Positions 8,899 through 53,284 of a DNA stretch of 64,000 bases are shown in pieces (the stretch's first letter is position 1; every line of letters starts with the position of its first letter). The stretch covers positions 186,001 through 250,000 of the forward strand of contig NZ_AGFF01000008.1 in NCBI RefSeq assembly GCF_000226215.1. Direction: 5' to 3'. A model generated the notes under the pieces. The model did no database searches. It had not been told where the DNA came from and worked only from the letters and a program-made list of their open reading frames with translations. This DNA comes from Dietzia alimentaria 72 (GTDB taxonomy: Bacteria; Actinomycetota; Actinomycetes; Mycobacteriales; Mycobacteriaceae). The position numbers were made by a program, and so were the translations under genes.

Positions 8899-9921
8899 AT
8901 GGCGGCAGAGCCCGATGCCGACCGAGGCGCCGCGCGCTCCGGGCACGTCCCGGTCTTCCTCGAGCGGACCATCGAACTCTTCCGTCCGGTCGTGGAGGGC
9001 GCCGCCGGTGAGGGGCGCACCCCGGTCATCGTGGACGGCACCCTCGGGCTCGGCGGCCACACTTCGCACCTGCTCGCGGAGTTCGATGACCTCCACATCC
9101 TCGGGGTGGACCGCGATCCGGAAGCGCTCGACATCGCCACTCGTCGGCTCACCGCCTACAGGGATCGCTTCACTCCTGTGCACGCACGATTCGACGACTT
9201 CGACGATATCGTCGCTGCGCTTCCCGCGGACGCCCGTGACGAGGCCGGACCGGCGATCGATGGAATCCTGCTGGACTTCGGGGTCTCCTCCATGCAGTTG
9301 GACGTGGCCGAGCGCGGCTTCGCCTACTCGGTCGACGCTCCGCTGGACATGCGGATGGACCCCACCACCGGCCCGACCGCCGCGGACGTGCTGGCCGACT
9401 ACACACACGGGGATCTCGCGCGCATCTTCCGGGTGTACGGCGAGGAGCGGTTCGCCCGGCAGATCGCCGCCGAGATCGTGCGACGGCGGGACACCGATCC
9501 GGTCACCACGAGTACTCAACTCGTCGAACTTCTCTACGACACCATCCCGCATGGGGCCCGCCGCACCGGAGGCCATCCGGGCAAGCGTGTGTTCCAAGCG
9601 CTGCGCATCGAAGTGAACGCGGAACTGGAGGCGGTGGAGAACGCCGTGCCCGGTTATCTCGACCTCGTCCGTGCAGGCGGACGTGCCGTGTTCATGGCCT
9701 ATCACTCGCTCGAGGACAAGATCGTCAAGCGCGAACTTACTTCGAGGATTGCCTCACGTACCCCCGCCGGCCTCCCGGTCGAACTTCCAGGTCACGGCCC
9801 GGAGTTCGCCGCGGTCACCAGGGGTGCGGAGAAGGCGTCACAGGCGGAGATCGATCACAACCCACGCTCGGCCTCGGTCCGGGTGCGTTGCGTCCGGCGA
9901 ATCGACGGGAGAAACCCATGA
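8899..9921 (+). CDS. rsmH: 16S rRNA (cytosine-1402-N4)-methyltransferase RsmH
   Basis: This 340-residue SAM-dependent enzyme (formerly MraW) methylates N4 of C1402 in 16S rRNA. The N-terminus shows HVPVFLERTIELF, and the SAM motif follows in VDGTLGLGGHTSHLL. Later motifs are ILLDFGVSSMQLD, RGFAYSVDAPLDMRMD and GGHPGKRVFQALRIEVN; these are diagnostic. The ATG at 8899 follows GAGGGAGG (8886-8893), and longer in-frame starts would extend into the leader RNA. It is the first gene of a tightly packed run, and its stop overlaps the ftsL start (ATGA at 9918-9921). Confidence 0.95.
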   Translation: MAAEPDADRGAARSGHVPVFLERTIELFRPVVEGAAGEGRTPVIVDGTLGLGGHTSHLLAEFDDLHILGVDRDPEALDIATRRLTAYRDRFTPVHARFDDFDDIVAALPADARDEAGPAIDGILLDFGVSSMQLDVAERGFAYSVDAPLDMRMDPTTGPTAADVLADYTHGDLARIFRVYGEERFARQIAAEIVRRRDTDPVTTSTQLVELLYDTIPHGARRTGGHPGKRVFQALRIEVNAELEAVENAVPGYLDLVRAGGRAVFMAYHSLEDKIVKRELTSRIASRTPAGLPVELPGHGPEFAAVTRGAEKASQAEIDHNPRSASVRVRCVRRIDGRNP

Positions 9922-10706
9922 CGAGCACAATCGATACGCCCGGGTCGATCAACGGGCTCGACACTCTGCCCACGCCCGGCGATGCCGTCGATGGTCCCGA
10001 GACCGCTGGCCGAGCGGTCGGCTTGCGACGTCGACCGGTCACCCGATCCGTACGAGGGCGTCGAACGGTCATAGTTCCCGCGGAGCGACTGAGCGCTGCC
10101 GACCTCGCGGGCCGGGTGCCCTTCGTCGTCGTGCTTCTCCTTCTCATCGGTGCGGGCGTGGGCGGCACACTCCTGCTCTCCGCCCAGACCACTCAGGACA
10201 CTTACGATCTGAAGAACGCCCGAGACTCCAACGTCGAGCTCGTCGAACGGATGGAGTCCCTCCAGGCGTCCAACGAACGCGCCCGCTCCGCTGAGGTTCT
10301 GGCCCAGCGCGCAGAGAAGCTCGGGATGGTCGGCGTGGCCAGCGCACCGATCCTCGCCAGGGGTTCGGACGGGGTCATCGAGATCGTGGGCGAGCCCGAG
10401 GCGAAGCTCGGCGCGCCGATCAAGCCGCTGCAGCCCGCTCCGGTAGCGTCCGATCCGTCGAGGTCGCCTGGCAGGGGCGGGTTCGACATACCGCCCGCGC
10501 AGTCCCCCCAGGACAGGACGCCTCGCGGGGTCGCCCCCGTCCCGTATCCGCCCACCCAGGCGGCTCTACCGGCGCCTCTTGGAGAACCCGTCCCTCCGGC
10601 TCCGGTCGAGCCGGCACCCGCAGTTCCCGAACTCGCCGCCCCGGCGCCGGCCGGCCCCGGCGCGGACACAGCGACACTTGCGCCGGTACCCGGCCAGCCG
10701 TTCTGA
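9918..10706 (+). CDS. ftsL: FtsL-like cell division protein
   Basis: This 262-residue bitopic membrane protein is assigned to FtsL by position between rsmH and ftsI and by its layout. It has a basic cytoplasmic N-terminus, one transmembrane helix (VPFVVVLLLLIGAGVGGTLLL, about residues 69-89) and a short coiled coil (TYDLKNARDSNVELVERMESL). A segment RAEKLGMV, typical of the family, follows. The last 110 residues or so are Pro/Ala-rich, much longer than in E. coli FtsL (121 aa) but usual in Corynebacteriales. FtsL scaffolds FtsQ and FtsB and activates FtsWI. It is translationally coupled to rsmH. Confidence 0.85.
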   Translation: MTSTIDTPGSINGLDTLPTPGDAVDGPETAGRAVGLRRRPVTRSVRGRRTVIVPAERLSAADLAGRVPFVVVLLLLIGAGVGGTLLLSAQTTQDTYDLKNARDSNVELVERMESLQASNERARSAEVLAQRAEKLGMVGVASAPILARGSDGVIEIVGEPEAKLGAPIKPLQPAPVASDPSRSPGRGGFDIPPAQSPQDRTPRGVAPVPYPPTQAALPAPLGEPVPPAPVEPAPAVPELAAPAPAGPGADTATLAPVPGQPF

Positions 10707-45272: not shown

Positions 45273-47096
45273 TCAGCGGGTCCGCAGCACGGCGAACCCG
45301 AACGCCTGACAGAACACCGAGTCAGTGTCGACGACCGCCCCTGAGGTCAGCACAGCCCCGCCAGCCAGCGGGACCCGACACGGCTCGGTGCCCAGGTTCA
45401 GTACCAGCGCCAGCGGCCCGCGATGGACGATCAGCCACCGATTGTCGGCCGCCTCAGTGCCGGCCTCTACGTGCACTGAGTTCAGCCATGGGTCGCTCAA
45501 TGCCGGTTCGGCCCGGCGCAGCGCGATCAACTCGCGATAACCCCGCAGGATCTGCGAGTGCGGCTCTGCTGACTGCTCCGAGCGATTGAGCACCGAGCGG
45601 TGGAAAGTCTCCGGATCCTGCGGGTCGGCCACCGCATCCGCATCCCAGCCTGTCGCCGCGAACTCCCTGCGCCTGCCCTCACGCACGGCCTCGGCCAGCT
45701 CAGGCTCGGGATGCGAGGTGAAATAGCAGAACGGCGTCTGCGCGCCCCACTCCTCGCCCTGGAACAACATGGGCGTGAACGGCGAACACAACACCAGCGC
45801 AGCCTTGGCCAACTGCTGCTGCGGAGTCAGAGTCATCGACGGCCGATCGCCGGCAGCTCGGTTACCAACCTGATCATGGGTCAGCGTGTACGCCACGAAC
45901 CGTGAACCCGGCACCCGGCCTACATCCACCGGACGCCCGTGCACGCGGCCGCGGAACGACGAATACGTCCCCGTGTGCAGGAACGCCCCCGTTAGCACCT
46001 GCTTCAGATTCTCGAGCGACCCGAAGTCCGCGAAGTAGCCCTGACGTTCCGCGGAGATCGCGGCGTGGATGGCGTGGTGTACGTCGTCGTCCCACTGCCC
46101 GTCTAGCCCCAGACCGCCTCCCTCACGCGCCGTGACCAGCCGCGGGTCGTTCTGATCCGACTCCGCCACCAGCGACAACGGCCGCCCCAGATGCGTGGAC
46201 AGCGACTCCACCGCCACCGCCAACTCCTCCAGCAGATGCACTGCCGAGCCGTCGTGCAGTGCGTGCACGGCATCCAGCCGCAGCGCATCCACATGGAACT
46301 CGGAGAACCAGCGCAGGGCGTTGTCGATGATGTAGCGCCGCACCTCCCCGGAGTCGGGCCCATCCAGGTTGAGCCCCGAGCCCCACGGCCCGTCAGCAGC
46401 GGACAGATACGGCCCGAACTCCGGAAGGTAGTTCCCCGACGGCCCCAGGTGGTTGTAGACCACGTCCAGACACACCCCCAGACCCCGCGCATGGCAGGCG
46501 TCCACGAAGTCCTGGAACGCGTCCGGCCCGCCGTAGGGCTCGTGCACTGCGAACCACGCCACGCCGTCGTAGCCCCAGCCGTACTCGCCGTTGAACGCGT
46601 TCACCGGCATCACCTCGACCATGTCCACGCCCAGCTCGACGAGCTCATCGAGATGCTCGATCGCGCTGCTCAGTGTCCCGCCGGTCGAGAACGTGCCCAC
46701 ATGCATCTCGTAGATCACCGACCCCGCCAGCTGGCGACCCGTCCACGCCGCATCGGTCCAGCGGGACGGGTCCACGCGATGCACCCGGGACAGTCCGTGC
46801 ACGCCGTCCGGCTGACGCGGCGACCGCGGGTCCGGTCGGGGTGGGCTGACCTCGTCGTCGTCGCCCGTCACCACGAATCCGTAGTCCCTGCCCTGCTCTC
46901 GGAGAACATCACTGGTCCACCAGCCGTCCGCGGCGCGACGCAGGGGAAGCGGGTCGGCATCGGGGGAGTCGAGCACCAGGCCCACCGCACGCGCCGACGG
47001 CGCCCAGACAGAGAACACAGCGTCGGGATCGCAGGTGGCGAGTTCGGCGGAGGCGGCGTTGCCGGCGGACGGGGACTGCTCACTCGAGGGGGTCAC
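45273..47096 (-). CDS. treZ: Malto-oligosyltrehalose trehalohydrolase TreZ
   Basis: This 607-residue GH13 enzyme releases trehalose from maltooligosyltrehalose made by TreY. The N-terminal CBM48-like domain starts FSVWAPSARAVGLVL. The catalytic barrel has LDVVYNHLGPSGN, the nucleophile in DALRLDAVHALHD, the acid in LVAESDQNDPRLV, and TLTHDQVGNRAAGDR. The GTG at 47096 is chosen since TACGCT (minus strand, 47109-47104) lies 7 nt upstream, a leaderless arrangement. Unlike M. tuberculosis, it is not adjacent to treY; 3.7 kb of other genes lie between. Confidence 0.93.
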   Translation of the reverse strand: MTPSSEQSPSAGNAASAELATCDPDAVFSVWAPSARAVGLVLDSPDADPLPLRRAADGWWTSDVLREQGRDYGFVVTGDDDEVSPPRPDPRSPRQPDGVHGLSRVHRVDPSRWTDAAWTGRQLAGSVIYEMHVGTFSTGGTLSSAIEHLDELVELGVDMVEVMPVNAFNGEYGWGYDGVAWFAVHEPYGGPDAFQDFVDACHARGLGVCLDVVYNHLGPSGNYLPEFGPYLSAADGPWGSGLNLDGPDSGEVRRYIIDNALRWFSEFHVDALRLDAVHALHDGSAVHLLEELAVAVESLSTHLGRPLSLVAESDQNDPRLVTAREGGGLGLDGQWDDDVHHAIHAAISAERQGYFADFGSLENLKQVLTGAFLHTGTYSSFRGRVHGRPVDVGRVPGSRFVAYTLTHDQVGNRAAGDRPSMTLTPQQQLAKAALVLCSPFTPMLFQGEEWGAQTPFCYFTSHPEPELAEAVREGRRREFAATGWDADAVADPQDPETFHRSVLNRSEQSAEPHSQILRGYRELIALRRAEPALSDPWLNSVHVEAGTEAADNRWLIVHRGPLALVLNLGTEPCRVPLAGGAVLTSGAVVDTDSVFCQAFGFAVLRTR

Positions 47097-47103
47097 GCCG
47101 CCC

Positions 47104-47128
47104 AGCGTAGGGAATGCCCGGCGATACT
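47104..47128. promoter_or_regulatory. Divergent leaderless promoters of treZ and yigZ
   Basis: The two start codons are 38 nt apart. TACGCT on the minus strand (47109-47104) serves treZ, and GATACT on the plus strand (47123-47128) serves yigZ. They lie 7 and 6 nt from their start codons. Polymerases would overlap here, so the promoters probably compete. Confidence 0.45.
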
Positions 47129-47134
47129 GGAGCC

Positions 47135-47812
47135 ATGGACCACACCGGCACCCGCCCACTCCGGCTCACCGCCGGACCGGACGTGACGGCTGAGTACGAG
47201 GAGAAGCGCTCCAAGTTTGTGGCGGTACTGAGACGGAGCGACGACGAGGACGACGCCCGCGCCCTGATCTCCGATCTCCGGGCAGAGCACCCCTCCGCTC
47301 GCCATCACTGCAGTGCCTTCCTGGTAGACGTGGCCGGGGCCAACCGCATCGAGCGCAGCAGTGACGACGGCGAGCCGTCCGGCACAGCAGGAATCCCCAT
47401 GCTGGACGTCCTGCGGGGAAGTGGTCTGACCGGCGTGAGCGCGGTGGTGGTCCGATGGTTCGGCGGGACCAAACTCGGCACCGGCGGACTCGTGCGCGCG
47501 TACTCCACCGCGGTGACTGCGGCGATCGACGAAGCCTGGAGGACAGGCCGCGTGGTGGAGGTGGTGCAAACCCCTGCCTGGACCGCCGACGTGGACCATG
47601 CTGTAGCCGGCGGACTCGAATCCGCGCTCCGGGCGGCCGGGGCACAGGTGCTCGACATCGCCTACGGCCGACGGGTCGCGATGACAGTGGCGGGGAAGCA
47701 CGAGGTGCTCGGGCCGATACTCGCCGCCCGTACCTCAGGGGGCGTCGAATGGGAGTCCGCGGGCGTCGCGACCACCGAGAACGCGGCGACGCGCCGGGGT
47801 ATGGAATCCTGA
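47135..47812 (+). CDS. YigZ/IMPACT family protein
   Basis: This 225-residue protein has the UPF0029 (Impact N-terminal) domain and a C-terminal ferredoxin-like DUF1949-type domain. Signature segments are EYEEKRSKFVAVLRR near the N-terminus, SSDDGEPSGTAGIPMLDVL, and VVVRWFGGTKLGTGGLVRAY. Family members act in translation or stress response in eukaryotes and may bind nucleic acid; the bacterial role is unclear. It lies in the stretch separating treZ from treY. Confidence 0.88.
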   Translation: MDHTGTRPLRLTAGPDVTAEYEEKRSKFVAVLRRSDDEDDARALISDLRAEHPSARHHCSAFLVDVAGANRIERSSDDGEPSGTAGIPMLDVLRGSGLTGVSAVVVRWFGGTKLGTGGLVRAYSTAVTAAIDEAWRTGRVVEVVQTPAWTADVDHAVAGGLESALRAAGAQVLDIAYGRRVAMTVAGKHEVLGPILAARTSGGVEWESAGVATTENAATRRGMES

Positions 47813-47816
47813 AGCC

Positions 47817-48053
47817 ATGAGCATGCAGCCCTACCAACCGAACTCGATCGAGCTCCAGAAGCAGCAGGTCCGCAAGAATTCGCGGAACACCGCGATCGCG
47901 TTGGGTGCGGTTGTGGTGTCTGTGCCCCTGATGTTGGTGCTCGACACGGCCTTTCTCCTGGTGGCGATCATCGCCGGAATCGCGACGGTCTACTACGGCC
48001 TCAAGGTCAAAAAGGCCATCTCCGGAGGGCCGGACCAGGGCCAGCTGTACTGA
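47817..48053 (+). CDS. Small two-helix membrane protein
   Basis: This 78-residue protein starts with a polar segment (SMQPYQPNSIELQKQQVRKN). Two hydrophobic stretches (ALGAVVVSVPLMLVL and AFLLVAIIAGIATVYYGL) follow, with a short tail. It begins 5 nt after yigZ, and its ATG overlaps the end of a TCCTGAAGCC spacer. No family is recognised. It is convergent with the nitroreductase, only 2 nt between the stops. Confidence 0.65.
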   Translation: MSMQPYQPNSIELQKQQVRKNSRNTAIALGAVVVSVPLMLVLDTAFLLVAIIAGIATVYYGLKVKKAISGGPDQGQLY

Positions 48054-48055
48054 CC

Positions 48056-48799
48056 TCAGCCGTGGCGGCGCACGACATCCGCTAGATCCGCGCGCTCGGT
48101 TCGAAACGCGTTGGCGGGATGCTCGGCGTCGGCGTACCCGAACGCGATTCCGCACACGATCAGCCGGTCCTCCGGAATTCCCAGGTGCTCGCGGATCCCG
48201 TCCGAGTACAGCGCCAGCGCCGCCTGCGCGCACGTGGCCACACCGACCGACGTGGCCGCCGCTAGGAACGTGGACACATAGGCGCCGCAGTCGACCGCGC
48301 CGTACGTGCCAAGGCCGGCGTCAGAGGTGATGATTGCGACGTGTGGCGCTCCGAAGAACCGGTAGTTCTCGAGCATCTGGCGGGTCCGCGCGTCATGGTC
48401 GGACCGCTCGATCCCGAGCGCCGAGTAAAGTCCGAAGCCGCTTGCCCTGCGCCTGTCGGAGTACACGCCGTCGTAGCGCTCGGGCGCCGGCAGGTCCGAC
48501 TTCATCGGGTTGGTCACCACGTGATCGGTGAGCGCCTTGCCGAACGCGGCCGTCGCCTCGCCAGAGACCAGGTCGACCTGCCAGGCCTGCGAATTGCACC
48601 ACGATGCCGTGCGCTGCGCCATCCGCAGGATCTGGTCAATCGTCTCCTCCGGCACCAGGTCCGAGGTGAAGCTACGGCAACTGTGGCGGTCGTCCAGGAT
48701 CTGCTCGAGAACGGCGGCCGCGCTGCCAGCGGATTCAGTGGTGCTGGCGGTTGCAACGTCGCTGGCAGGGACAGCGGGCATAACGGTGGCGTCGGGCAT
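48056..48799 (-). CDS. Nitroreductase family flavoprotein
   Basis: This 247-residue protein of the FMN-dependent nitroreductase superfamily shows the N-terminal RHSCRSFTSDLVPEETIDQI motif and QRTASWCNSQAWQVDLVSG. A C-terminal FMN-phosphate region is recognisable around LIVCGIAFGYADAEHPAN. These are typical of NAD(P)H-dependent reductases for nitro or quinone substrates, usually cytoplasmic dimers. The ATG at 48799 has a CTCTGGAG site upstream. Its substrate cannot be inferred. It stands between treZ-side genes and the repeat-flanked AbiEi-like gene. Confidence 0.85.
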   Translation of the reverse strand: MPDATVMPAVPASDVATASTTESAGSAAAVLEQILDDRHSCRSFTSDLVPEETIDQILRMAQRTASWCNSQAWQVDLVSGEATAAFGKALTDHVVTNPMKSDLPAPERYDGVYSDRRRASGFGLYSALGIERSDHDARTRQMLENYRFFGAPHVAIITSDAGLGTYGAVDCGAYVSTFLAAATSVGVATCAQAALALYSDGIREHLGIPEDRLIVCGIAFGYADAEHPANAFRTERADLADVVRRHG

Positions 48800-48896
48800 T
48801 GGCACTCCAGAGGGGAATTCGCGGGTTGTGACTTCAGTCTCGCACGGACGCAGGCGCGCCCTGCCGCCGCCATCGAGCAGCCTCTGCCTCACGACA

Positions 48897-48952
48897 CCTA
48901 TCCGATCGCGCGGGACCTATCGGATCCCATAGGCATGGTGAATTCGGATAGG
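48897..48952 (+). repeat. 56-bp palindromic repeat, copy 1
   Basis: This element begins CCTATCCGA and ends TCGGATAGG, which pair as a perfect 9-bp stem (11 bp with flanking CA/TG). An inner inverted pair CCTAT/ATAGG lies at its positions 20-37. It aligns with the reverse complement of copy 2 at 43 of 56 positions without gaps, and at 38 of 56 in direct orientation. It lies in the 337-nt gap between the nitroreductase and AbiEi-like starts; the rest of that gap holds no gene I can support. Confidence 0.7.
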
Positions 48953-49136
48953 TGCGGGGCGCGGAAGAGGATGCGTCGTCTATTCGAAATGAGCTCGCCA
49001 CGGCGAATCCGCTGCTCCCTCGGCGTGAATCGGCTGCGGTCAGTCGAATTCCCCAGTGCTGCCGTTCTCCACAGCCCGCTCACATTAGGAGGCATACGGC
49101 GGGGATCGCCGTCTTGAGCTGCCTGATGATCTGGCT

Positions 49137-50066
49137 ATGAACGCCATCGAAGAACTTCGTCCCATGCTCATCACCACCGATCAGCTACTTAGTCGAGGCA
49201 TGACGAGTCAGAAAGTTAGCCAGTCAGTGGCATCCGGCGAGCTGATCAGGATCAGGCCCGGCTTCTACGTCGAAGGCCGAGCGCGTGAGCTCCGCAGGAA
49301 AGACCGCCATCTGCTCTCAGTTCTCGCTGCGAACTCCGCGCTGGACGGCCCCATCTTCTCGCATTCGTCGGCGGCGCTTGTTCATGGATTGCCGGGCTGG
49401 GGACTGCCTCTCAGGAAAGTGTCGGTGTCTGAGGACTGCGCTAGGGCGCGTTCCCGCACTAGCAGGCTGGTGGATTTCCACTGTGTCCCGAACCTCCACG
49501 ATGACGTGAGCACAGTGAACGGTCTACGGGTCACCAACGCCGAGCGGACAGTGACTGAGGTCGCGATGACGGCGGGACGAGACGCGAGCGTGGCGGTCGC
49601 TGACGCGGCTCTGAACAGCGGAACTACAACGCCAGAGTCTCTGGATCTGGCGATGCGCCGAGCTGCCGGCCGGCCAGGGATTAAACGCGCTCGTCTGGCG
49701 ATGAGTCTTGGCGATGCCAAAAGTGAAAGCGTGGCGGAATCGTTGAGCCGGCTCACCTTTCGGGACTTCGGTCTGCCCGAGCCCGAGTCCCAGGTCGAGA
49801 TCTTCACCCCCAGTGGCGCCCGGGTTGCCCGCGTTGACTTCCTCTGGCATGAATACGGCGTTGTGGGCGAATGCGACGGGTTCGGCAAGTATTTCGACAG
49901 CGCGAGCCCGGCAGAATCCAGACACCGGCTCGGAATGGAGAAGGACCGCGACGCAGAACTCACGGCCCTCGGATACCGGGTCCTGCATTGGCGATGGCGA
50001 GACCTCGAGGAGCCCCATCTCCTCGCTGCGCGGATTCGGAGGGTGCTGTTTTCTGCTGCCGCTTGA
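49137..50066 (+). CDS. AbiEi antitoxin-like / DUF559 (VSR-type) protein
   Basis: This 309-residue protein starts with a winged-helix region like that of AbiEi antitoxins: LITTDQLLSRGMTSQKVSQS and then ELIRIRPGFYVEG. FSHSSAALVHGLPGW follows. The C-terminal 100 residues match the DUF559/very-short-patch-repair endonuclease-like fold, with VDFLWHEYGVVGECDG as the acidic core and ELTALGYRVLHWRWRDL at the end. Such proteins are common and mobile in actinobacteria. No AbiEii nucleotidyltransferase toxin is adjacent, so it is an orphan. Its base composition looks less GC-rich than neighbours. The start codon lacks a ribosome binding site. Confidence 0.72.
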   Translation: MNAIEELRPMLITTDQLLSRGMTSQKVSQSVASGELIRIRPGFYVEGRARELRRKDRHLLSVLAANSALDGPIFSHSSAALVHGLPGWGLPLRKVSVSEDCARARSRTSRLVDFHCVPNLHDDVSTVNGLRVTNAERTVTEVAMTAGRDASVAVADAALNSGTTTPESLDLAMRRAAGRPGIKRARLAMSLGDAKSESVAESLSRLTFRDFGLPEPESQVEIFTPSGARVARVDFLWHEYGVVGECDGFGKYFDSASPAESRHRLGMEKDRDAELTALGYRVLHWRWRDLEEPHLLAARIRRVLFSAAA

Positions 50067-50175
50067 AAGATGGTTCGCCGAGACAACAGAACCGGTCGAA
50101 TTCTTTGCTAACCCCAGCAGGAGAGCCGCGACGCCCCAGAAGCAGTCCCACGGCCCCGACACGAGGCCCACGGCG

Positions 50176-50231
50176 CCTATCGGATTCCGCGACGCCCATG
50201 GGATCCGTTAGGTCTATCGCAATCCGATAGG
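50176..50231 (-). repeat. 56-bp palindromic repeat, copy 2
   Basis: CCTATCGGATT (50176-50186) and AATCCGATAGG (50221-50231) form a perfect 11-bp inverted pair. Compared with copy 1, the pair at element positions 7 and 50 changes from C-G to G-C, so the stem is kept by a compensatory change. The octamer GGCAGAGG at 50245-50252 mirrors CCTCTGCC at 48881-48888 outside copy 1, extending the inverted relation beyond the core. Confidence 0.7.
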
Positions 50232-50295
50232 TCTCGCGGGGAGGGGCAGAGGTTCGCGGAGTTGGGCGTTGGTCTCGGGGAGTCAGGCAGACCGA

Positions 50296-50301
50296 TAGTC
50301 T
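50296..50301 (+). promoter_or_regulatory. -10 box of a leaderless S4-protein promoter
   Basis: TAGTCT lies 6 nt before the ATG at 50308 with no ribosome binding site. Confidence 0.45.
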
Positions 50302-50307
50302 GGATTC

Positions 50308-50679
50308 ATGGGTGTGCGGGTCGATGCGTGGACATGGTCGGTGCGACTGTTCCCGTCGCGGACCAAGGCCGCCGCTGCGTGTCGGGGCGGCCATGTCAAG
50401 GTCAACGGTGAGGCGGTGCAGCCATCGAAGAACGTCGTACCCGGCGATCGCGTGCAGGTGACGGGCACGCTGGGGCGCATCCGCATCCTCGAGGTGGTGC
50501 AGACCGTCAGTAAGCGGGTCGGCGCTCCGGTGGCTGCGACCTGCTACATCGATCATTCGCCCGCGCCGCCGCCCAAAGAGGTCCTCGCCTCGCAACCGCG
50601 CAGAGACCGCGGAGCGGGACGGCCGACCAAGCGCGAGCGCCGCGAGACCGATTGGCTGCTGGGCAGAGACCCGGTCTGA
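50308..50679 (+). CDS. S4-domain RNA-binding protein (Hsp15-like)
   Basis: This 123-residue protein has an N-terminal S4 RNA-binding domain: VRVDAWTWSVRLFPSRTKAA, then CRGGHVKVNGEAVQPSKNV and VPGDRVQVTG. The C-terminal half is basic (QPRRDRGAGRPTKRERRETD). It resembles Hsp15 (HslR), which binds free 50S subunits carrying nascent chains. The role here is inferred from domain architecture. A -10 box directly upstream suggests a leaderless mRNA. It is convergent with treY. Confidence 0.85.
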   Translation: MGVRVDAWTWSVRLFPSRTKAAAACRGGHVKVNGEAVQPSKNVVPGDRVQVTGTLGRIRILEVVQTVSKRVGAPVAATCYIDHSPAPPPKEVLASQPRRDRGAGRPTKRERRETDWLLGRDPV

Positions 50680-50797
50680 GCCTCGGACCGAGACCCGGGC
50701 TGAGCGGCGAATGAAGCTGCGCCAGCGAAAGCCAGTGCCAGCCGCGGTAGCTGAGCCTGCGCCATCGCCATCGGAAACTGAGCCCGCGTCACCCGAG

Positions 50798-53284
50798 TCA
50801 GCCGCGCGCCCGCTCGATCACCACCAGCGCCGCATCGGCGAGCAGTTCGCCCACGTCAACGCGGCCGGAGATGCGGACACCGCTGCCTGAACCGCCGCCC
50901 AAACCGGAGCCGGACGAGCCGATCGCGCTCACCGCCCATGACCCGGGGGGCAGGTCCACCGCGGTGCCGACGAAGTCCTCGGGAGGCATCACCGCGGTGC
51001 GCCGCCGGGCGATCATGCCGACCACCGGCCGGCCGTCGACCTCCCGCGTGAACGACACCACCTCGGAGCCTGCGGGACCGTGGACCGGAATCGGCACGTG
51101 GGCACCTCCCGCGAGGGCGTCCGGATACTCGCGACGCACCCGCAACAGCTGGCGGACCAGCAGGAACTTGGGATGCCCTGCGCGCGCCACGGCTCCGGAC
51201 CGAAGCGGGCCGTAGTCCACGAACCGGCGGTTGTCCGGATCGACCAGCGAGTCCTCCCAGACCTCCGTGCCCTGGTAGACATCCGGCACACCTGGCGCGA
51301 GCAATTGCAGGGCCTTGGCGAGCAGCGCGGTGTCGCGGCCCGCGGGGGCGATGCGCTCCACGAACGAGCTCACCATCCCGGCACCTGAGTCGATGAGTCC
51401 GTCGACCCACCGATGCATGGCGGACTCGAACTGCGCATCCTGATCGGTCCACGTGGTGTGCACCGCGGCCTCGCGTAGCGCTTTGTCGGCATAAGCATGC
51501 AGACGCGACCGCAGTTCCTTCGACGGCCCACCCAGCTCCGGCCACACGCCCACGATCACCTGCAGCAGGAAGTAGCCGGCGTCCGCGGCGGGCGGCGGGA
51601 ACTTGGCGAACACCTCCCCGACGAACTCCGCCCACTCGTCCGGCACCTGCGAGAACACCGAAATGCGGGCGCGTACGTCCTCACCGCGCTTGGTGTCGTG
51701 CGTGCTCAGCGCGGACATCGCCAGCGGTGTGGCCCGAGCTCGCTCGGCCATCGCCAGATGGAACGCGTCCGTGGATAGCCCCATGAGCCCGGGTGAGCCG
51801 CCCACCTCGTTGAGCGAGACGAGCCGGCCCAGCCGGTAGAACAGTCGGTCCTCCTCGGCTTTGGCGGTAGCGGCACCGGTGACCTGCGCGAGCCTGACCG
51901 ACGTCTCACCACCGCGGGCCAGGGCCCCGGCCACGAGCGCGAGCGGCACTGCCAGTTCCGGCCGCTGCCGCCGCAGCTCCTCCACGATCGCCGGGAGCGT
52001 GCCACGCAGGACGGGGTAGTCGGCCCGATAGAACGGCGTCTGCGCGATCACCGAGATCAGCGCTTCGCGGAGGAGGGCCTCGTCGTCGTCGATCCCGACG
52101 TCGTCGGGGCTCCGTTCGCCCCCGCTGCCACCGACCCCGCTGCCCGCGCCGTTGCTAGCACCACCGTCGCGACGTACCGCCCGCACCAACCGCGCCAATT
52201 CGGGCGCCAGATCCTCGGCCACGATCTGCCGCTTGAGCTCGGCGGACTGCGCGTGCACCTGGGCGTCGTCCCCTGGCCCGTCGCAGTACTGCTCGGCCAG
52301 CTCCGACAGCCGACCTTCGCCGCGGGTGTCCACGAGCAGCTGGTCGATCAACCGAAGCATGTCGTAGCCCGTGGTGCCGTCGACTCCCATGGCGGGCTCG
52401 AGCACCTCAGGCGGCGTGATGCGAGTTCCGGGCGCGAGGATCTTCTCGACCAGCAGCCACCGGTCCGGGCCGGCGAGCTCACGCAGTCTGCGCGCGTAGT
52501 CCACGGGGTCGGCGAGGCCGTCGGGGTGATCGACGCGGATGCCGTCCACCAGATCCTCCTCGCACCAGCGGCGCACCTGGGCATGCGTGGCCTCAAAGAC
52601 CTCGGGATCCTCCTGCCGCAGCCCGGCCAGCTCGGTCACGGTGAAGAACCTCCGATATCCCAGCAGCGGCTCACGCCAGTGGACCAGGCGGTAGTGCTGC
52701 CGGTCGTGCACCTGCTGAGCCGTGCCGCCCTCGGTGCCGGGAGCGATCGGGAACCGGTGCTCGTAGAAGTGCAGTTCGTGGGTACCTGCCCCTGTGTCGA
52801 CGACGACGAGGTCCGCCACGTCGTCCGGCGAGCCGAGCACCGGGATCGCGATCCGCCCGCCGACGCCATTGTCGGGCGCGGTGTCGAAGTCGAAGAACGA
52901 GAAGTACGACGAGTCCGGGCCCCGCCGCAGCGCGTCCCACCACCACGGGTTGGCGGCGGGCTGCTCCACGCCCAGGTGATTGGGCACGATGTCCACCACC
53001 AGACCCAGACCGTGCTCCCGGCACGCGGCCCGCAGCTCGCGCAGTCCGTCGATCCCGCCGAGTTCTGCAGAAACAGTGGTCGGATCCACCACGTCGTAGC
53101 CGTGCGTCGAGCCGGGCGTGGCCGTGAGAATCGGCGAGAGGTACACGGCCCCCACCCCGAGCTCGGCCAGATAGGGGAGCAGCTCCTGCGCGTCGGTCAG
53201 GGTGAAGCCGCGACCGTCCGGGTCGGAGGCCGGGGTACGTAGCTGGAGCCGGTAGGTGCTGGAGGGCGTCGCGCGGCGGTCCAC
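50798..53284 (-). CDS. treY: Malto-oligosyltrehalose synthase TreY
   Basis: This 828-residue GH13 enzyme isomerises the reducing-end glucose of maltodextrins from alpha-1,4 to alpha,alpha-1,1. Motifs are STYRLQL at the N-terminus, VVDIVPNHLGVEQPAA, the nucleophile in DGIRVDHPDGLADP, the acid in LLVEKILAPG, and ALSTHDTKRGEDVRARI. A Gly/Ser-rich insertion (GAGSGVGGSGGERSPDD, about residues 380-396) interrupts the central domain. The GTG start lies 3 nt after the treX stop, so the genes form an operon. Confidence 0.94.
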   Translation of the reverse strand: MDRRATPSSTYRLQLRTPASDPDGRGFTLTDAQELLPYLAELGVGAVYLSPILTATPGSTHGYDVVDPTTVSAELGGIDGLRELRAACREHGLGLVVDIVPNHLGVEQPAANPWWWDALRRGPDSSYFSFFDFDTAPDNGVGGRIAIPVLGSPDDVADLVVVDTGAGTHELHFYEHRFPIAPGTEGGTAQQVHDRQHYRLVHWREPLLGYRRFFTVTELAGLRQEDPEVFEATHAQVRRWCEEDLVDGIRVDHPDGLADPVDYARRLRELAGPDRWLLVEKILAPGTRITPPEVLEPAMGVDGTTGYDMLRLIDQLLVDTRGEGRLSELAEQYCDGPGDDAQVHAQSAELKRQIVAEDLAPELARLVRAVRRDGGASNGAGSGVGGSGGERSPDDVGIDDDEALLREALISVIAQTPFYRADYPVLRGTLPAIVEELRRQRPELAVPLALVAGALARGGETSVRLAQVTGAATAKAEEDRLFYRLGRLVSLNEVGGSPGLMGLSTDAFHLAMAERARATPLAMSALSTHDTKRGEDVRARISVFSQVPDEWAEFVGEVFAKFPPPAADAGYFLLQVIVGVWPELGGPSKELRSRLHAYADKALREAAVHTTWTDQDAQFESAMHRWVDGLIDSGAGMVSSFVERIAPAGRDTALLAKALQLLAPGVPDVYQGTEVWEDSLVDPDNRRFVDYGPLRSGAVARAGHPKFLLVRQLLRVRREYPDALAGGAHVPIPVHGPAGSEVVSFTREVDGRPVVGMIARRRTAVMPPEDFVGTAVDLPPGSWAVSAIGSSGSGLGGGSGSGVRISGRVDVGELLADAALVVIERARG

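Follow-up and report, generated by a model that had tools for sequence, protein, structure and literature searches.

Why should a solitary gene of Dietzia alimentaria 72 lie between two long palindromes, and do gene and palindromes belong together? The window (the whole 64,000-nucleotide stretch of DNA analysed here) holds such an arrangement, for which a first-pass annotation made from the sequence alone had left three options: a mobile cassette, a REP-like repeat family of this genome, or the recognition sites of the encoded protein. The evidence says that these are aspects of one thing. In our best reading, the locus has the organisation of the REP/TnpA_REP 'REPtron', with an unrelated nuclease at its core. 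Gene and palindromes would form one system, in which the nuclease binds, cuts and spreads its cognate palindrome, and we put the probability of this at about 0.64.

The second palindrome is related to the first in inverted orientation (43 of 56 positions against 38 of 56 in direct orientation, counts that we reproduce), and a repeat search finds the pair to be the longest inverted repeat in 46000–53000, with 76-nt arms that are 74% complementary (Table 1). The recomputed positions of both copies agree with those first annotated; the unit, originally drawn as 56 bp, is better drawn as 66 bp from alignment with other genomic copies, in which it is symmetrical about its own centre. Each copy is an imperfect palindrome (19/28 and 20/28 pairs), and each arm in the window carries the motif ACCTATCSGAT/ACCTATSGGAT twice, ~19 bp apart, a two-arm pattern that gave 0 matches in 100 shuffles. 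CCTCTGCC and GGCAGAGG do extend the inverted relation locally, as had been noted, and lie outside the repeat-family alignment. The ORF list confirms a single orphan gene between the copies, and the nitroreductase ORF to its left probably has its true start near 48801. No transposase (DDE, HUH, Y or S) occurs among the listed neighbours of the gene, in keeping with the earlier observation, or in the Pfam matches of its relatives.

Table 1. Features of the AbiEi-Vsr locus and its surroundings (window coordinates).
Feature	Position	Strand	Remarks
Palindrome 1, upstream of gene	48892..48957	.	66 bp; centre 212 bp 5' of start codon
AbiEi-Vsr fusion gene	49137..50066	+	309 aa; stand-alone ORF
Palindrome 2, downstream of gene	50171..50236	.	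66 bp; centre 137 bp 3' of stop codon
CCTCTGCC	48881..48888	+	Local extension of the inverted relation between both palindromes
GGCAGAGG	50245..50252	+	Partner of CCTCTGCC
Left neighbour, nitroreductase	48056..48892	-	ORF as listed; outside the unit; marks insertion locus common to Dietzia species
Right neighbour, S4-domain protein	50308..50679	+	Outside the unit; marks insertion locus

Bracketing by palindromes recurs in relatives of the gene. We scanned 35 evaluable Dietzia homologues, which share 30–69% identity with the window protein, independently of the window's sequence and at a fixed threshold (score at least 12); palindromes lie on both sides in 23/35, on one side in 8 and on neither in 4, which places at least one in 31/35. 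Random 930-bp brackets in the same DNA were both-sided in 15/12,621, and chance palindromes were rejected on this comparison. A covariance model detects related palindromes at some loci below threshold (for example, L080, L086 and L096). The same architecture is found in other genera and other classes of the phylum, where 7/29 loci are both-sided at the same threshold over a background of 1/57,740 positions; 20/29 have no palindrome above it, in a scan that misses odd-centred or gapped palindromes. At L083 7600-7740 (= L129 start) and L095 near 9135-9220, the gene-side palindromes contain extra tandem copies of the 19-bp unit, as if they had grown by unit duplication.

The product was first described as AbiEi/DUF559-like, and domain and structure searches bear this out. 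Pfam places AbiEi_4 at its N-terminus, PADLOC an AbiEi match over residues 11–200, and 8/43 aligned relatives match DUF559 in Pfam. The AlphaFold2 model is confident (pLDDT 92.7), and Foldseek searches of the PDB relate it to the AbiEi antitoxin (6y8q, E 4.6e-6) and, with weaker E-values, to Vsr (1vsr, prob 1.00) and the homing endonuclease I-Bth0305I (3r3p, prob 1.00, TM 0.71 on target). From these matches we read the protein as an AbiEi-like module fused to a Vsr-like nuclease; on the predicted model, it is formed by a winged-helix DNA-binding N-terminal part and a Vsr/I-Bth0305I-like nuclease C-terminal part. A sequence-only search of the PDB returned a weak match alone (3hrl, 'Endonuclease-Like Protein', E 0.68), and NCBIfam has no name for proteins of the family. 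Across 43 homologues, sixteen positions never vary; these include E201, D234, E245, D247 and K251, as expected of a kept active site in which the five would be the catalytic residues. The HUH (Y1) TnpA_REP domain is absent: Pfam detects only AbiEi_4 in the window protein and AbiEi/DUF559-type domains in its relatives, and Foldseek AbiEi, Vsr and I-Bth0305I.

The palindrome changes wholly in sequence between protein clades and keeps a similar layout, with a repeat inside each arm. The window clade has CACCTATCGGAT, and other clades have TCCGCTACTCC, GCCGCTCCTGG, CAACAGCGGTG and AAACGCAGGC, among others. Copy numbers come from sequence searches, which find seven copies of the family in the window genome (two at the gene and five elsewhere) and the family itself in 16/23 Dietzia genomes, supporting in part the idea of a REP-like family, as one aspect of a single system. 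Scattered copies had been foreseen as a possible mark of a general repeat unrelated to the gene; scattered they are, yet on sequence comparison the repeat family of a genome follows its gene clade, with exceptions. Genomes without a close gene homologue (G012, G013, G014, G018 and G020) are also without window-family copies. The exceptions are G003 and G005, where the gene is present, the gene-side palindromes are degenerate or absent and no dispersed copies are recognisable, and G004, where window-type palindromes (L313-L316) occur and no window-type gene was found in a 95%-complete genome. The G004 palindromes thus stand as orphan repeats. Family copies are also present in G006 and G022, whose genomes are just 64% and 83% complete.

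Other families behave alike. With seven cognate palindromes from other Dietzia clades used jointly as query, the repeat families match, among the matches listed, genomes that carry the cognate gene: G000 alone has the F family, G004 alone the L119 family and G018 alone the B family, and G012 has no match among them to any of the seven. Beyond Dietzia, ten genomes from other genera and classes of Actinomycetota were each searched with the ten palindromes taken from them; by eye, we count ~80 matches to a genome's own palindrome and a single marginal match (E 3e-4) to a foreign one. Copies lie away from the gene in nine of these ten non-Dietzia genomes, reaching 16–17 in G076 and G112; with gene-side copies included, the by-eye counts are 19 (G112), 18 (G076), 11 (G167), 8 (G068 and G023), 4 (G031, G033 and G027) and 2 (G120 and G145). 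Two paralogous genes of the window clade, each with its own palindrome, occur in G017, and both palindrome types recur among the dispersed copies there (3/4 of those examined match one gene's type and 1/4 the other's). At the level of sequence, then, gene and palindrome are associated and have co-diversified.

The anatomy of the copies suggests how they are recognised. In G112 and G076, the genomes with most copies in that comparison, the arms are near invariant and the centre or mid-arm varies. The first-pass annotation took a switch from C-G to G-C at stem pair 7/50 to mean that the hairpin is under selection; the switch is real, but selection does not follow from it, since the covariation over seven genomic copies was reached by 374/500 shuffles. 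Pair counts give modest to weak hairpin covariation in G112 and none above shuffles in G076 or the window family, so we reject selection on the hairpin for the latter two and find weak support in G112. Near-invariant arms with little covariation fit double-stranded motif recognition better than hairpin upkeep, and a single-strand, REP-like mechanism is not supported, covariation being absent in two families and weak in one.

By heuristic gene calls, 24/27 dispersed copies lie between genes (15 convergent, 8 tandem and 1 divergent). Two C-family copies in G015 sit in open frame, in variable linkers of membrane-protein genes, and are missing from other Dietzia: one lies within a LysE-like transporter (L163 around base 1183; G015 C1:107183) and the other within another membrane protein (L165 around base 10296; G015 C1:417296), and the linkers that hold them are missing from several relatives. 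At the site orthologous to G015 C1:873657 (L228/L229), G015 has a C-family palindrome and G013 and G017 a different long palindrome (~CGCGCAANNACTGCAGCCGCAC...), perhaps of another repeat family. Contigs often end at or near palindromes or genes (G000:C36:28-93; G000:C21, both ends; G011:C24; G010:C32/C21; G021:C30), which suggests that the repeats break short-read assemblies and are under-counted.

This placement bears on the chief rival to our reading, a regulatory regulon. The protein would here be an AbiEi-like regulator and the dispersed palindromes its operators or terminators, spread by ordinary selection or another mechanism, with the nuclease domain otherwise employed. AbiEi is an autorepressor that binds inverted repeats (PMC7319586), most dispersed copies are intergenic, the 15/27 between convergent genes occupy a terminator or insulator position, and close species retain the palindromes, in many cases better than the flanking DNA. 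We nevertheless consider a regulon unlikely: just 1/27 copies falls between divergent promoters, bracketing of the gene is as consistent downstream as upstream, copies in frame within coding genes make poor operators, and it would be unusual for operators to multiply as 66-bp units with a sequence replaced outright from clade to clade.

Less probable again is a role in defence or as a toxin–antitoxin, with an AbiEi-like antitoxin/nuclease protecting the host and the palindromes serving as control or self-marking sites. PADLOC AbiEi models do match, and Vsr-like nucleases resemble restriction-type enzymes, but no AbiEii nucleotidyltransferase toxin gene lies beside the window gene, whose neighbours are the nitroreductase and the S4 protein. 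A toxin–antitoxin operon was dropped for want of a partner toxin. Relatives occur in no phage records and four weak plasmid records, against a defence role and equally against phage or plasmid cargo, and the nitroreductase–S4 locus is common to many species rather than a defence island. The PLSDB 'plasmids' of Tsukamurella NCTC13231 (L242, L244 and L245) carry pdxS, hadAB, rpmG and dTMP kinase genes and are therefore probably chromosome pieces.

Comparison of species indicates that the system has moved. The window locus is filled in many species and empty in G004, G010, G013, G016 and G018. Two further gene loci exist in the window clade, and the tree makes the window gene sister to locus-2 genes and not to the other locus-1 genes (98, starred); the gene therefore changed place or was copied. 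All of the ten dispersed G015 copies tested recur at identical positions in one or more of the close relatives G007, G008 and G011 (by palindrome-level alignment for most); in more distant Dietzia, dispersed G015 copies are missing at several orthologous sites. We reject recent mobility between close species on these shared sites, which imply slow or halted movement; at the scale that separates species, movement is real but slow. Six sites tried for empty and filled borders and target-site duplication yielded no readable junction or duplication, because the intergenic DNA is too diverged. The first-pass suggestion of a mobile cassette survives in its broader part, with empty counterparts and a family that moved position in evolution; recent mobility of the window cassette, whose site is common to many species, is unsupported. 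Some genes have probably decayed: the locus-2 homologues L096 8185-8977 (G015) and L100 7461-8388 (G008) are split between reading frames, likely by frameshift, while palindromes and dispersed copies persist in both genomes, and one G013 homologue carries an in-frame TAA.

A non-autonomous cassette or MITE, moved by an unrelated transposase in trans with the nuclease gene as passenger, could explain inverted terminal palindromes that resemble those of a composite element, and the lack of a local transposase; it is very improbable, as a transposase in trans leaves unexplained why the palindrome follows the passenger's protein clade across many families. Chance, or a general repeat unlinked to the gene, can practically be discarded: the window pair is weak when taken by itself (19–20/28 pairs), but the bracketing frequencies and genome-by-genome cognate matching refute it.

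How might a palindrome-spreading nuclease work? In experiments, AbiEi and Rv2827c, its homologue from Mycobacterium, each bound 23-bp inverted repeats close to its own gene and not those of the other protein (PMC7319586). Homology to these proteins means that the N-terminal part should bind the palindrome arms, and binding of the protein to its cognate palindrome is very probable; the option of recognition sites thus holds in part, with palindromes that are cognate to the protein's clade. Four motif copies, two per arm, inverted and with ~19–20 bp spacing, could seat several protomers on one palindrome. The Vsr-like domain would, we infer, nick or cut DNA at the palindrome, and host repair or replication after cutting would copy it to new sites, mostly intergenic; more rarely, the whole palindrome-gene-palindrome unit would relocate. 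The upstream palindrome is probably also an autoregulatory operator, as in AbiEi. A kept active site, private palindromes on both sides and copies that track the clade would be expected of an enzyme that acts on the palindrome and causes it to spread, and such nuclease-driven dissemination is likely.

Several known systems share parts of this design. Vsr targets T:G mismatches, and I-Bth0305I works as a stand-alone homing enzyme; the C-terminal domain here has the Vsr-like fold with invariant acidic and Lys residues, and neither enzyme is known to pair with dispersed palindromes. Rickettsia palindromic elements resemble the C-family palindromes that lie in frame within genes, in variable linkers, but have no known cognate gene, unlike the palindromes described here. 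Type IV AbiE shares the AbiEi fold with its N-terminal winged helix and has inverted repeats adjoining the AbiEi gene (PMC7319586), whereas the window gene has no AbiEii beside it, an extra C-terminal nuclease, and palindromes on both sides and genome-wide; with no toxin, it is not a type IV toxin–antitoxin pair. The closest parallel is the REPtron, in which REPs directly adjoin a tnpA_REP gene and cognate REPs are spread throughout the genome (PMC8266576). In both, cognate palindromes lie beside the gene and are dispersed mostly between genes, the gene is usually vertically inherited, a genome can hold several independent gene/palindrome pairs, and repeat and protein co-diversify. The REPtron uses an HUH tyrosine transposase and 20–50-nt hairpins after GTAG, whereas here an AbiEi-Vsr fusion accompanies ~50–70 bp double palindromes with a repeated motif; in the arms it is the sequence that is conserved, and constraint on a hairpin is hardly apparent; by inspection, no GTAG-like tetranucleotide is common to the clade-specific palindromes. 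Having neither HUH enzyme nor GTAG-type tag, the system works like a REPtron without being one. In the open-access literature we found no paper linking AbiEi-Vsr or DUF559 to palindromic repeats, only papers on REP/RAYT and on AbiEi, an absence that is not proof.

The system looks like an unrecognised counterpart of the E. coli REP repeats, run by an unrelated enzyme. We consider it somewhat better than an even bet that it represents a phylum-wide class in Actinomycetota, selfish or domesticated, whose AbiEi-Vsr nucleases each recognise and spread a clade-specific palindrome of their own; this would be a second, independently evolved instance of the REPtron-like principle and would give 'orphan antitoxin' AbiEi/DUF559 proteins a role in mobile DNA. 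Actinobacterial genomes commonly encode proteins annotated as 'AbiEi antitoxin domain' or DUF559, which have no known role outside toxin–antitoxin pairs, and the AbiEi-Vsr fusions among them gain a testable one, together with a natural set of matched protein/DNA-site pairs of changing specificity. Our findings suggest that families of REP-like repeats have more than one origin and rely on different enzymes. The means by which REP-type repeats spread have long been in question, and a second, unrelated palindrome-spreading enzyme would, if true, offer a strong comparison.
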